Positions 1,369-32,551 of a DNA stretch of 64,000 nt are shown one piece after another. Origin of the DNA: Ustilago trichophora (Eukaryota; Basidiomycota; Ustilaginomycetes; Ustilaginales; Ustilaginaceae); assembly GCA_900323505.1 (NCBI GenBank), contig OOIN01000013.1, forward strand, positions 124,001 to 188,000. Reading direction: 5' to 3'. Numbering within the stretch: position 1 is the first letter of the stretch; each line of letters begins with the position of its first letter. Below the pieces are notes generated by a model. It ran no database searches. It saw only the letters and a list, made by a program, of their open reading frames with translations, and was not told where the DNA came from. The position numbers and the translations under genes were made by a program.

Positions 1369-3593
1369 CTACTGTGGCACTGAGCATGTCTGTGAAGAAG
1401 AAGTGTGCGAGACCTCAAAGAGCATGCCAAAGATGAGAAATGGAGGAATATGGCGTATGCCATGAAAAAGAGGCGCATACGGCGATGGCTGAGCACAAGC
1501 CGGGTGAGGATATGGAGGCTCTTTCGAGCGGATTCAACTGTGCCATGGCTCTGGACTGTTCTCGGCCGCGGAATGCTTCGAAAGGATTCATTGACTCCTC
1601 GTATTTGGCGCGATACTTGTCATCGCCCATTCGAGGCGGTGGGTAGGCTCCCGACGCGTCGGTGCGTCCCGTTGCGCCAACCCCAATTTGGATGACCGAA
1701 TCGCCCCCGGCTCCGGCACCGGATCTACGTCCTCCAGCAGGACCGTAGCTCTGCAAATAGCGCACCTTTTCGTATAACCCGAGATTGTCGGCTTGAAGAG
1801 TCTTGATCTCGGTTCTGAGCTCGCTGATGGTCTCGAATTGCTTGCGCAGCTCTTCTTCGAGCTCGGCGTTGCGACTACGGAAGCGGTCTCGCTGGGATGT
1901 GACGATGGGTAGAATGCTGCTGTCCCCGCCAAGTGCGGCTGAGGTGGAGGGTCTCGGGGAGGCTGAGGCAGGAACGGACCTGGCGGGATGCGTTCCATTG
2001 ACTCCTTCTTTGCTAGACGGAGCGTTGCGCGCCTTTGCACCCTGGTTGCTTGGCGACTTGGGCTTCGAGCGATTCCATCTCTTTGAGGCATCTTCGGCAC
2101 TCATAGCAGCAGGTCCTTTTGCTGCGACGGAAGGACGGCCGCCATCGCGACCGATGGACGCCAGATCGGTCTCAAGCCTCTCGTTGAGTGTTTAACATGC
2201 GCATGCTCTTGTTGGAGAGATGTGAGGTCGGCCGTAGCTTTGGTCAGCGAGGTCGAAAGCTCGTCGTTCGAGACGCGGAGGGTAGCAAGCTGATCTTCGA
2301 GCCGTTTGTTCTTCTCCAAAAGCAACGCTTCCAGGCTCTTTCCATCTGCGGATTTTTTACCGGATCCCTGCTGGCCGTCTCGATTGGCCGTCGTTGACGC
2401 TGTCAACTCGGTATCCTCATCATCCTCGGCGTTAAAGTGGACAGCCTTGACGATCTCGAGCTCGCGCTTGATGTCGGCATAGTCGCTTCGCTGTTGAAGT
2501 TGATACGGAGCGACTCGATCTCTGCATCCTTCTCGGCTTGCAACTTGAGTTTGTCGTCTCGTGTCGCAGCGACCTGCTTGGTCAGATCGGCGGACTGCTG
2601 ACGTTGTGTCTCGAGCAGCGACTGCACCTGGACGAGCTTGCGATCCTTTTCTTGAGTCTCTGCTTCGAGCTTTTGGAGTTTGTCGCTCTCTTGGCGACCG
2701 CTCTTGACGCTCTCGATCTCGGCACGCAGCTGCTCGTTGCGCCTCTCGACACTCTCGACTCGGGCGTGTGCGCGTTCGAGATCACGGGAGAGCAGTTCGA
2801 CTTCGGCAAAGTTGCCCTTGGCGTCTCGATCCTCGTCATCGTGGCCTTTCTCGAGTAGCTTGGCTGTGGCTGTCTCGTCTCTTGACTTGAGGTGCTTGAG
2901 CTGTTCTTGGGCCAGATTGAGCGATTTTGTAAGGTCGGCTTCCCTCTCCTTGAGGTTGCGTATCCTCTCGTCCCACTTGGCCGACAGCTCCAACTCGAGC
3001 GCAGAAGTGCGTTGCTGCAGTTTGGCCTCAAAGTCTTGCTCGAGCGAGCGCATGCGCTCTTGCAAGTGTGCATTCTCAGCCTCGCGCGCTTTGTTGGCGT
3101 CGGCCTCGGCCGTGTGATGCTGCAAATCTCTCTTGAGCTTTGCATTTTCTTCTCGCAAGCTTTCGAGATCATTGAGGGATGCCGCCTGTTCCAGTGTGAC
3201 CTCAAGAAAGGGATATGGATCAGGCGCCGCTGTCAATGCCGAGTGGACGTTGAGAAAGGCATTCTCAGCGGCTTTGGAACGCTTGGTGAGGGTATCGATC
3301 TCGGTCTGATACGCTTTGAGCAAAGGTTTGAAGCTTTCAAGCTTGTTGGAATCGGGCTGCTTCTTGAATTCTCTGGTTTGATCAGCAAGCTTCTTGCGGT
3401 TGGCGACAGCTGCCTTTTGCGCTTCGAGTAGTTCAGGAGCGGTGCCGTTGAGCTGTCGTTGGAGATCGGAGAGGTTGATGTCCCTCCAGATGGAGAGAGC
3501 TGCGGAGAAGTCGATGGGTGGTCGACTTGGACCTGACCCATCGATGCTGTACGGCGCTGCTGCCGCTGGCTGCGACGACGACGCGGCGGCCAT
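1369..3593 (-). CDS. CASP/Coy1-like Golgi coiled-coil membrane protein
   Basis: Homologue of CASP (CUX1 splice form) and yeast Coy1, a tail-anchored Golgi protein involved in intra-Golgi traffic. The N-terminus (IDFSAALSIWRDINLSDLQR, then EAQKAAVANRKKLADQTREF) matches the conserved start of this family. Long heptad coiled coils follow (residues about 120-390), then a Ser/Pro linker. The conserved CASP C-terminal block ends in KYEESMNPFEAFRGREQSRA and NPLERA, then a membrane anchor reading HRRMRLFFMAYAIFLH and LIFGMLFEV. The protein is split over three frames (breaks near 2405, 2100, 1510 and 1440), each compatible with one missing base. The frame carrying the anchor ends at TAG 1369-1371. The start at 3593 is the first ATG before the conserved block. 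Confidence 0.85.
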
Positions 3594-4348
3594 AGCTGTG
3601 GTTGTGCCGTCACAGTACAGTGCAAGTTCGGTGCAGTTCGGTGCAGTAGCGTGTAGCAGAGTACCATCGAGGTCAAACGTCGAGGACCCTTGTTTGAGAG
3701 TGTCGGTTCGTATTCTGAAATTCGCACGGACGCTGAAGGGCTTATATTTTCTTCAAGATGTTAGATGTCTCAAGCAACAAATAGCGCCTAAATCGCTTTG
3801 ATTGGTTGGGTCGTCTGGACTGAACTTGGCTCAACAACAGCTGAAAAGTCGAACTCTGATTCGATGAAATTTTTCTATCGCCGCGTCCGTGCCACGGTGA
3901 CGGTGAATGGTCATCAGAGGAGAAGAAGAAAGAAAATCTCGTTTCAGAGGAGCTGCCGTAGTTGGAGTTGACTCGACAAAAGATGAGAGAGAGGCCATTT
4001 TGACTCGAATCCTTATCTTGGCACAAAGCGCTCATTTCACTTCTTTCCTTCTCTCCTTCTTCTCCTCTAATCCCAAAGTACTGCACCACTTTCAACTTCA
4101 AAGCTACTCCTATTCAAGCTCAACTTCATCGCATCCTCCTCTGAAGGATCCGAACTCTAAGCTCCTCCTGCCTCTACCACCAAGTTCCACCGCCCGAACG
4201 CAAAGGGCTGTATAGCGCATGTTCGTTCAGCAGACCAGGGACGACTACATCAGTGATTCCGTCTACAAATCTTCGCACAACGCTTGAAGATCCCCTCGAA
4301 ACACTCTGTCTTAACGTATTCCTTTCTTTCCAAAAAAAAAACAACACC
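3594..4348. promoter_or_regulatory. divergent promoter region and CPA1 leader
   Basis: This is shared upstream DNA of the divergent CASP-like gene and CPA1. The stretch 4030-4210 is pyrimidine-rich (CTTCTTTCCTTCTCTCCTTC), typical of fungal transcription start regions. It also contains the CPA1 upstream ORF, annotated separately. No other coding signal was seen. Confidence 0.5.
4219..4287 (+). promoter_or_regulatory. arginine attenuator peptide (AAP) upstream ORF of CPA1
   Basis: A 22-codon ORF starts at ATG 4219 and stops at TGA 4285-4287, 61 nt before the CPA1 start codon. Its core reads RDDYISDSVYKSSH. Yeast CPA1 and Neurospora arg-2 leaders carry the equivalent motif (QDYISDHIWKTSS and QDYLSDHLWRA), at the same distance from a short N-terminus and just before a stop codon. 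In those fungi the nascent peptide stalls the terminating ribosome when arginine is high and so shuts off translation of the downstream gene. The Asp of DY(I/L)SD, known to be required there, is present. Position, length and motif all agree, so the same control is inferred here; transcript data would be needed to show that the leader contains it. Confidence 0.88.
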
Positions 4349-5790
4349 ATGCTTGCTCCTCTCCGCAACACCATGCTCCAGCGTGCCACCGCTGCTCCCT
4401 CCATGGGCCACATGCTTCGACGAGGCGCCCTTCGCTCGCTCGCTACCCATGCTCCTGGCCCTATCACCTACACCGAGGCTCCTGCTTCTAAGCCTGCCAC
4501 CCTGCACCTCAAGTCTGGCCACTCGTTCACCGGCCGCTCCTTCGGTGCTCCTCGAAGCGTGTTCGGTGAGACCGTCTTCACCACTTCGATCACCTCGTAT
4601 ACCGAGTCGCTCACCGACCCTTCCTACCAAGGCCAGATCCTCACCTTCACCCAGCCTCTGATGGGCAACTACGGTGTCCCCGACAACGGTTGCGGTCAGT
4701 CTCCCATCGAGCACCCCGCCGACGTCGACGTTGGCGCTTTCCTCGAGTCCAACAAGGTGCAGGCTGCCGGTGTCATCGTCTCGAACCTTGCCGAGCGATT
4801 CTCACACTACCTGGCCAAGGAGTCGCTCGCCACCTGGTGTGCCCGACACAACGTTCCGGTATCTTTGGCGTCGACACTCGTGCCATCACCTCGCTCCTCC
4901 GAGACCAGGGCTCCACCCTGGGTGCCATCCTCGTCGGCGACGGCCACGAGAAGTCTCCTGCCACTGGCGACTACATCGACCCCATGTCCGAGAACCTCAT
5001 CGCCAAGGTCTCGACCAAGGAGCCCTACGTCCTTCACCCCGTCGGCGGTGCCCAGGCTGCCCGCTGCCACGTCGCCTTGATGGACTTTGGCTGCAAGGCC
5101 AACATTCTCCGATCGCTGCTCCGTCGTGGTGCTTCGGTCACCGTCCTCCCCTGGGACTTTGACTTCAACAAGGTCCGTAACGGTTTCGACGGTCTCTTCC
5201 TGTCCAACGGTCCTGGCTCGCCTTACTCGATCGAGCCTGCCCTCGACATGGCTCGCGCCGCCATCTCTGAGTGGGATCGTCCCATCTTTGGTATCTGCAT
5301 GGGTAACCAGGTGATTGGAATCGCTGCTGGTGTCGAGGCCTACCGCATGAAGTTTGGCAACCGTGGCCACAACCAGCCCGTCGTCGCTCTCAAGTCGGCC
5401 GGCAACTTTGTCAAGCGCGGTCGTGTCTACATCACCTCGCAGAACCACGGTTACGCTCTCACCCCTGATGAGAGCAAGTGGCCCGAGGGATGGCAGCCTT
5501 GGTTCGTCAATGCCAACGACTCTTCGGTCGAGGGCATTATCCGCACTCAGCTCAACGAGCAGCGCGCCATGGTTTGGGGTGTTCAGTTCCACCCTGAGCA
5601 CGCCGGCGGTCCCGAGGACACCAATGGCATCTTCGAGGACTTTGTCGAGGAGGTGGTGCGCATCAAGGGCCAGCAGGGCAGGTCGCACGCCGGCAAGGGT
5701 CTTCCTGAGGACATTGCCGTCAAGCAGGGTGCCCCCGCTTTCCCCGTCAACGACTTTGGCGTTGTCGGTCAGAGCCCCGCACACCTTTGA
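4349..5790 (+). CDS. CPA1: carbamoyl-phosphate synthase, arginine-specific small (glutaminase) chain
   Basis: Glutamine amidotransferase subunit that supplies ammonia to the large chain to make carbamoyl phosphate for arginine. Residues 1-40 (Arg/Ser/Ala-rich, no acidic residues) look like a mitochondrial presequence. The N-terminal small-chain domain (FGETVFTTSITSYTESLTDP) is followed by a class I glutaminase domain: FLSNGPGSP, the nucleophile Cys in FGICMGNQ, and the His/Glu pair in VQFHPEH. The ATG at 4349 follows a run of A and CAACACC, a good context. The frame breaks once near 4855-4858, between ARHNVP and GIFGVDTRAITS; one extra C there restores a full-length protein of about 480 aa. 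As the gene is needed for arginine synthesis and everything else is intact, a base-calling error is more likely than a null allele. Convergent with the DUF1749 gene, about 120 bp apart. Confidence 0.95.
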
Positions 5791-5912
5791 GTGATCCCTT
5801 TTCCTCTCTAAAGTTTCACTGTCTACATGTAGTTAAGAGCTCTCTTCTGGGCTCGCAGTTTTTTTCGAATCGTCTAATGCTTTTATAATTTCATTGCTTT
5901 CTTGTGCGTGCG

Positions 5913-7076
5913 TCATGTGAGTTTCGCGAGGAAATCATCGACAGTTTGTATCAAGTGATCTGTAGCGACTTGACCCGCCGCTTGGTGGTTGGCTTGCTTG
6001 AGCACGGTCGCTTGGAATCCACCCGTGCCGTTGAGAAGCTCAGTCCAGCGCTGGAGAAGGATGTTGGCGACACCATCGGGTACGTACTCACTGAGGAGAA
6101 GGAATAGAAGATGAAAAGGGAGACAAGGGCAATGTCAGACATGTGATAGAAGGTCAAGAAGAGTCTCAAAGGGTAAACACTCACTCTTTCTCGCCGATGA
6201 GTGCCAAGATACGCGGAGTGATGGTCGAGTTGGGACCGACTCCTGCTTGGAGGTTCTTAATCGCCCTACCAATTGTTCGTGAGCCTGGATCAGTGGCTGT
6301 GATAAGCGCATCCTCGAGATCAGAGCTGAAAAAGTCATCATGTCCGCCCTTGGCTCTGAGTGACCAAGAGCGGTAAGCCGTCATGGCTGGAGACAGAACA
6401 GCAGATGCATTGCCTGAGCTCGTGCTGCCTGTTGCTACAGAGTCGGCAGGCTGCGGAGGATCCGAGGGATCTGTCGGCATTGAGATGGACGCGGCATCCT
6501 TCCTAGGCAGAAGAGCAGCGCCTTGACCTGTTCGTACGAGCTGTGTAGCCTCTTGGAGCTCACGATCCATCTCCTCACGAACCGCATCCGAATCGGCCAG
6601 TTTCCTTTCCAGCTCGAAGAACTCCCGATCTGATACGGGCGCCTGCAAGATAGCACCATCGATTCTGGTAGAGGGGTCAGCAGCGCGCGTGGATGACAAG
6701 AGATACGCAATCAAGTCTTGACAACCAGTCGAGTGTCCCATGAGCACCACCTTGCCCTTTTGCTTGGCTGGTAAGCTACGAAGATGCGAAACGCAGGATG
6801 CAATTTCCTGTGCATCTCCTTCAAGTGTACACTGTCCATATCCACCCAAGTTGCACGTCAGCTGCGGTTGAACGAGGGAAAAGCCATGGTTGCGGATCGA
6901 GTCGGCGAGTCGAGGCAAGTAGGGGATGGTTCCGATTGTGTCGGTGAGCCCTGGAGCAAAGACGAGCGAGTGTGGTAGATCCGCATCGGTGTCAAAGTAT
7001 GGCAACGCTACAGGCTTCTTTTGGAAGAGCTGTAGCGTGCCTTTGAGCGGCGTTGGAAATGAAGCTGTCGAGGCAT
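5913..7076 (-). CDS. DUF1749 (UPF0613) alpha/beta hydrolase
   Basis: Fungal alpha/beta hydrolase of unknown substrate. Exon 1 (6185 up to the start) holds the N-terminal strand region (LPHSLVFAPGLTDTIGTIPY) and the nucleophile elbow GHSTGCQD. A 94-nt intron (6091-6184, GTGAGT...CAG) is followed by exon 2 (5913-6090) with GEKDEYVPDG, the acid region, and a late NHQ that could supply the His. From the LPYF codons at about 7005 the two exons give exactly 333 codons. Similarity-like sequence (FPTPLKGTLQLFQKKPVA) extends further upstream without an ATG in frame. The ATG at 7074-7076 comes into frame if one C is added near 7055, so the span is drawn to there. The 5' end is the uncertain part. Confidence 0.82.
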
Positions 7077-28582: not shown

Positions 28583-31670
<3,088 letters not shown>

Positions 31671-32551
31671 GGTGGGCTACCTCGTTGCTGGCGCCCGACA
31701 GCTGCCAAATCTGCCACCGTCAATGTCGAGGATGAGATAAGACTGAAGTCTTGGAAGAGGTAGTCACCACCACCACCACAACCGCCAGGAGCCGTGTGAG
31801 TAAGTGCACGAGAAAAGCGTCAAGTGTTGATCATGAAAAAGGTAGTGAAGGAAGGCAAGAGAAGTCAAAGAGCGCTTTCAAGAAGGACGTAGGGCGGCTA
31901 GACAAGATCTCTCCTTGGTTTAGCTTAGCGCCGTCAGCAAGATATCAAGCGCCAATCGCTTTTCTCGTCCCCTCCCTGCTTTCTTGCTCGAGCTTGTGCG
32001 CGTATTGTGTGTCACCTTTTGGAGCTGCGAGAGTCGATGCGATGTGTTTCAAAGCCATATGCTGGGTTGTGTAATTGAGAGAAAGAGTGTCGCTTGCTCT
32101 CTTCAGATAGAGTTAGAGAGTACCGTCACAGGGTTCAATCAATAAACGGTCCGTGTGCAGCTGTCGCATGTGGCTGAAACGCCGCGTGAAAGCCAAGCGA
32201 GAAAAGCAGACACGCCCGAAAAACTGAGCGCAGCCAGTTTTGCCGGTAAAGTTACTGTAACTGTACTCTGTCGCGCCGCCCTTTTCACGCATGAAATTTC
32301 AAGATCGCGCCCAGCTGCTGCATCCGTCAGCCTCTTTTTTTTTCGACAAGCTTGCAAGGCTCGAGTCTGAGCAAACAAGACTCTCTCTTCGTTAATCTTA
32401 TCTTCAGAACACCGCATGTAGGAGGATATCGCTCTGGTTTAAAACGCAGAGCTGCTGTGAGACGCCGAGAAGACGTGTCTATTACGACAGGTACAAGACT
32501 CCACAACGTGTTATATACAGGATATGGTTAGGGCAAGAATACGAGAGTAAT
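31671..32551. other. intergenic, promoter side of the lipase-like gene
   Basis: 881 bp between two minus-strand genes. It has CAC/CCA triplets near 31765 and a GTTACTGTAACTGTAC element near 32251-32266. No gene was recognised. Confidence 0.4.

Follow-up and report, generated by a model that had tools for sequence, protein, structure and literature searches.

A short upstream open reading frame (uORF) in front of CPA1, the gene for the small subunit of arginine-specific carbamoyl-phosphate synthase, is probably the counterpart in the smut Ustilago trichophora of the fungal arginine attenuator peptide (AAP), and by analogy with yeast, Neurospora and Cryptococcus it would act by arginine-dependent ribosome stalling. 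The assignment to the AAP type is supported by the place of the uORF, by the core of its peptide and by the fact that the core pattern occurs nowhere else in the assembly. The features are located in the window, that is, the whole stretch of 64,000 nucleotides of contig OOIN01000013.1 that was analysed:

2403-3593, minus strand: gene with a CUX1-like N-terminal domain, identified by domain search
4034..4073, plus strand: 90% pyrimidine tract, the likely neighbourhood of the transcription start
4219..4287, plus strand: arginine-attenuator-type uORF of 22 codons, encoding MFVQQTRDDYISDSVYKSSHNA, out of frame with CPA1
4234..4269, plus strand: 12-residue core TRDDYISDSVYK, residues 6-17 of MFVQQTRDDYISDSVYKSSHNA
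4288..4348, plus strand: intercistronic spacer of 61 nt; its last bases give CPA1 the start context aacacc ATG, with A at -3
4349..5790, plus strand: CPA1, arginine-specific carbamoyl-phosphate synthase small subunit, with a one-base frame break near 4855-4865

CPA1 and the gene with the CUX1-like domain are divergent and separated by an intergenic region of 755 nt (3594-4348). The original prediction of a 22-codon ORF located 61 nt before CPA1 was borne out, as the plus-strand uORF at 4219-4287 ends at exactly this distance from the ATG at 4349. It is not part of a longer frame because an in-frame stop codon (4213-4215) precedes its own ATG at 4219. A short AUG uORF located 5' of a CPA1/arg-2 orthologue and outside the main frame is one mark of the AAP class, and it is found here. 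The uORF ATG is the sole ATG between the pyrimidine tract and CPA1. Five more ATGs precede the tract; transcription starting that far upstream would add them to the leader. The splice-donor words GTAAGT, GTGAGT, GTATGT, GTACGT, GTAAG, GTGAG and GTATG are all absent from the 755-nt intergenic region.

The start contexts of the two frames differ, with C at -3 of the uORF and A at -3 of CPA1. Among the ORFs of at least 300 codons in the window, 10 of 14 have A or G at this position, a count to be read with caution as the first ATG may not be the true start. The yeast CPA1 uORF is described as having a weak start context and being subject to leaky scanning (PMC7969011). The weak context of the smut uORF fits this leaky-scanning model.

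The smut peptide was compared with the AAPs of yeast CPA1 and Neurospora arg-2. After the basic residue, their tails read TSSH (yeast) and ALNA (Neurospora), and Trp-19 is needed for the Neurospora AAP. A published mutagenic primer agrees with the yeast stretch T-C-Q-D13-Y-I (PMC7969011). Residues 6-17 of the uORF peptide were aligned without gaps to residues 9-20 of the Neurospora peptide and to residues 10-21 of the yeast peptide. The core TRDDYISDSVYK is identical to these references at 7 of 12 positions (yeast) and 5 of 12 positions (Neurospora), with positive scores at 9 of 12 positions in each case.

Like the Saccharomyces cerevisiae AAP, the smut uORF precedes CPA1 itself, and both peptides contain the core T-x-x-D-Y-I-S-D-x-[I/V]-aromatic-K. 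The smut peptide differs from it by Tyr for Trp, Ser for His, a different N-terminus, a length of 22 instead of 25 residues and a distance from core to stop that is one residue longer. The Neurospora crassa AAP also precedes the same gene and shares the T-x-x-D-Y-x-S-D core and the Asn-Ala end, whereas Tyr for Trp, Lys for Arg, Ser for His-17 and a tail longer by one residue set the smut peptide apart. Judged against these peptides, the second mark of the class is present as well, namely an Asp-Tyr-[Ile/Leu]-Ser-Asp core in which position +6 is hydrophobic and position +8 basic. The +7 position is Tyr, and there is no Trp.

DYISD and the hydrophobic/aromatic pair announced in the original prediction are part of the core, with their spacing kept, and the core alignment confirmed the predicted Tyr in place of Trp. 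The prediction let the resemblance begin at DYISD; this motif stands, but the starting point had to be moved, as the yeast and Neurospora peptides share a further residue with it, the Thr three positions ahead of the conserved Asp. Nor does K-S-S-H directly precede the stop, since Asn-Ala stands between the two. Beyond the basic residue the peptide ends in the five residues SSHNA, against four in both references, and the uORF stop lies 14 codons past the conserved Asp, against 13 in the yeast and Neurospora peptides. With a tail longer by one residue, either the core would be located one residue deeper in the tunnel when the stop is reached, or the halt would occur one codon earlier, during elongation.

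To weigh this resemblance against chance, every 12-residue stretch of ATG-stop ORFs of 12-60 codons was scored for its match to the two reference cores, from Neurospora arg-2 and from yeast CPA1. With TRDDYISDSVYK, the uORF scored 35.5. Dinucleotide shuffles of the leader (4034-4348) never reached this score (0 of 30,000; best 25.5), any ORF of at least 12 codons being present in 11,931 of the 30,000. Shuffles of the intergenic region (3594-4348) did not reach it either (0 of 30,000), and their best score was 32.0, not far below 35.5. Together, the window and 37 genome loci supplied a set of 2,636 such ORFs (12-60 codons), in which the runner-up scored 23.0. The CPA1 uORF occurs five times in this set because four of the loci overlap the window there, and the comparison is strict because 30 of the loci were chosen for a D-Y-x-S-D-like site.

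The shuffles, for the leader and for the whole intergenic region alike, make it extremely improbable that the uORF is a short ORF that arose by chance, without a specific role for its peptide and repressive in no more than a generic way. What speaks for such an ORF is that D-Y-x-S-D alone occurs at chance frequency genome-wide (30 sites, compared with 31 for the reversed-pattern control), so the proof lies in the longer core and its position, and these five residues alone give none. The degenerate pattern D-Y-[FLIMV]-(WSN codon)-D-x-[FLIMV]-(TDB codon)-(MRN codon) was found at a single site in 38.8 Mb, the CPA1 uORF, exactly before CPA1, and at 0 sites with the reversed control. As used on the genome, the D-Y-x-S-D pattern misses some Leu and Val codons, and the longer degenerate core pattern is wider. 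No further AAP-like uORF scoring above 23.0 was found among the ORFs of 12-60 codons in the surroundings (about 3 kb each) of the 30 D-Y-x-S-D sites, and no second copy of the leader was found in the assembly. One locus with a score of 22.0 (L033) was considered as a second AAP-like uORF and rejected, as the ORF is antisense to a long open frame.

Several studies describe how AAPs work. At high arginine, the nascent AAP blocks the peptidyl-transferase centre; with ribosomes halted at the uORF stop, those still scanning do not get to CPA1, and nonsense-mediated decay is a possible further fate of the mRNA (PMC7969011, PMC11550727). The yeast AAP stalls ribosomes at the stop, and the D13N exchange abolishes this effect (PMC7969011). 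On the Neurospora arg-2 uORF, ribosomes were seen by profiling (PMC5487733). In the basidiomycete Cryptococcus, the AAP uORF of the CPA1 homologue CND01050 is strongly occupied by ribosomes, the main ORF is repressed, and a 5-fold increase was reported in a upf1 mutant (PMC7049704). Like the smut uORF, it is of the AAP type and belongs to a basidiomycete CPA1 homologue. An AAP-like arginine-responsive peptide that needs a conserved Asp is also encoded by the uORF of ApiAT1 in Toxoplasma gondii (PMC8370653). This uORF is unlike the smut one in that it has 33 residues and precedes an arginine transporter, not CPA1.

If the smut uORF operates in the same manner, most scanning ribosomes would bypass its weak start at low arginine and initiate at CPA1. 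Once arginine is abundant, the nascent chain would inhibit the peptidyl-transferase centre from within the exit tunnel, and the ribosome would halt at the uORF stop or one codon earlier. The halted ribosome would block those scanning behind it, lowering CPA1 synthesis, and the stalled stop may expose the mRNA to nonsense-mediated decay. Should this mechanism hold, nascent-peptide arginine feedback would reach the Ustilaginomycotina, and a natural variant with Trp exchanged for Tyr and one additional residue would be at hand to test which residues, and what spacing from the peptidyl-transferase centre, the sensor requires.

According to the original prediction, the uORF would extend arginine feedback by nascent-peptide stalling to a basidiomycete smut. 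Its AAP reading is supported, with the sole AUG of the likely leader, the core and the unique pattern in its favour, but its novelty is weaker, as the Cryptococcus CPA1 AAP is already in print (PMC7049704). The class is therefore not confined to ascomycetes, and its occurrence in a basidiomycete is not new at the phylum level. The smut uORF is a somewhat divergent example of a known switch rather than a novel type of regulation. In the searched listings and passages of open-licence papers, a smut AAP was not mentioned. Spevak, in 2010, reportedly compared the AAPs of many fungi, and together with work by Hood in 2007 this is said to cover AAP sequence and evolution in a survey of many fungi. 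Given the survey of 2010, an AAP from a smut could well have been published already.

Database searches with the uORF peptide returned no match in Pfam at E values up to 10 and nothing among PDB sequences at E values up to 10. The Pfam model PF08252 (Leader_CPA1), run over the whole genome, gave no match at the uORF and two matches below the cut-off elsewhere (contigs C36 and C43), which were taken as chance. The peptide does not reach the curated cut-off of 18.5 bits, and the uORF was not filed under PF08252 because the model fails to detect it. A fusion of the peptide to the CPA1 protein was looked for as DY[ILVMF]SD and found in none of the best 120 of 7,921 relatives. DNA scans of viral and prokaryotic collections yielded one viral-collection locus (L038, 40% identity) and, among 569 confirmed loci, at least 80 with bacterial titles; all 81 were left out of the analysis.

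The exchange of Trp for Tyr and of His-17 for Ser, the stop 14 instead of 13 codons past the Asp, the lack of a PF08252 match and the frame break in CPA1 were counted against the AAP reading. Two modified readings build on the Tyr and the longer tail. In the first, which is rather unlikely, the attenuator is re-tuned: with Tyr for Trp and a tail one residue longer, it would stall ribosomes during elongation, with Asn-21 in the P site and one codon short of the stop, or need a different arginine level. If this were true, Trp would not be essential, and tail length would set the position of arrest. In the second, less probable still, the uORF is homologous but altered, being translated and lowering CPA1, with its arginine response lost or changed through the Trp to Tyr exchange and the extra residue. 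The Tyr, the tail one residue longer and the blindness of the Pfam model to the peptide would agree with such an alteration, but Asp-Tyr-Ile-Ser-Asp, the aromatic +7 residue and the basic +8 residue are all retained at the exact spacing, which speaks against it.

The frame break in CPA1 concerns the downstream gene itself. The frame starting at ATG 4349 encodes a CPSase small-chain domain (PF00988, 6.6e-32), and the following frame encodes a class-I glutamine amidotransferase domain (PF00117, 5.3e-45). Among the best 120 of 7,921 listed relatives, the second half is 90% identical to a metagenomic protein (P0001); of those with a named source, Malassezia proteins come closest (66-71%), followed by Acaromyces (60%). 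These relatives place the host very probably in the Ustilaginomycotina. No other CPA1 gene was found in the assembly. P0001 and other relatives are open across the break site. An intron spanning the break was considered and rejected, since the relatives encode residues there. The one-base break is probably an assembly or sequencing error, an assembly error being the likeliest cause because the frames on both sides of the break are otherwise open. If the break were real, the gene would be dead, the uORF a relic and the strain an arginine auxotroph.

With this one-base break in the sole copy found, CPA1 could be a recent pseudogene; alternatively, transcription could start downstream of 4219, which would put the uORF outside the mature leader, and in both cases the peptide would be inactive in this strain. 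Either is very unlikely. The pyrimidine-rich tract at 4034-4073 is located upstream of the uORF, and the CPA1 frames are otherwise open around the break, with a second half close to P0001. Moreover, a chaperonin-family match near the end of another contig (C9:3567-5146) switches between two frames without gaps; this alternation looks like indel errors in the assembly and suggests that such errors occur outside CPA1 as well.

As for the N-terminus of CPA1, the residues encoded at 4349-4450 of the window are basic, contain Ala, Arg and Ser, and resemble by eye a mitochondrial presequence. Extra in-frame ATGs are found at codons 9, 19 and 22.

In the 38.8-Mb assembly, many conserved genes are present twice, on paired contigs (e.g., C1/C2, C3/C4, C10/C11, C17/C44, C28/C34, C32/C38 and C37/C39). 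Most matches to the chaperonin family come in pairs of near-equal score, and a CAD-type frame of 2,239 codons occurs on both C17 and C44, with 94.7% identity over 3,559 bp. A stretch of C15 and C16 is 87% identical over 2,018 bp, and a third pair, C21 and C34, gave no alignment. The paired contigs suggest two subgenomes, as would be found in a hybrid, in a mixed culture or in a dikaryon with high heterozygosity. For the contig that holds the window (C12, 910,607 bp), no near-identical partner was found at three places: window positions 2403-6500, window positions 30000-32500 and 486-489 kb of the contig. The lack of a partner at these places may stem from a lost homologue, from loss of heterozygosity or from the purging of a contig. 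The place at 486-489 kb, about 360 kb away on the same contig, has fragments of 67-79% identity on C10, C11, C28 and C34.
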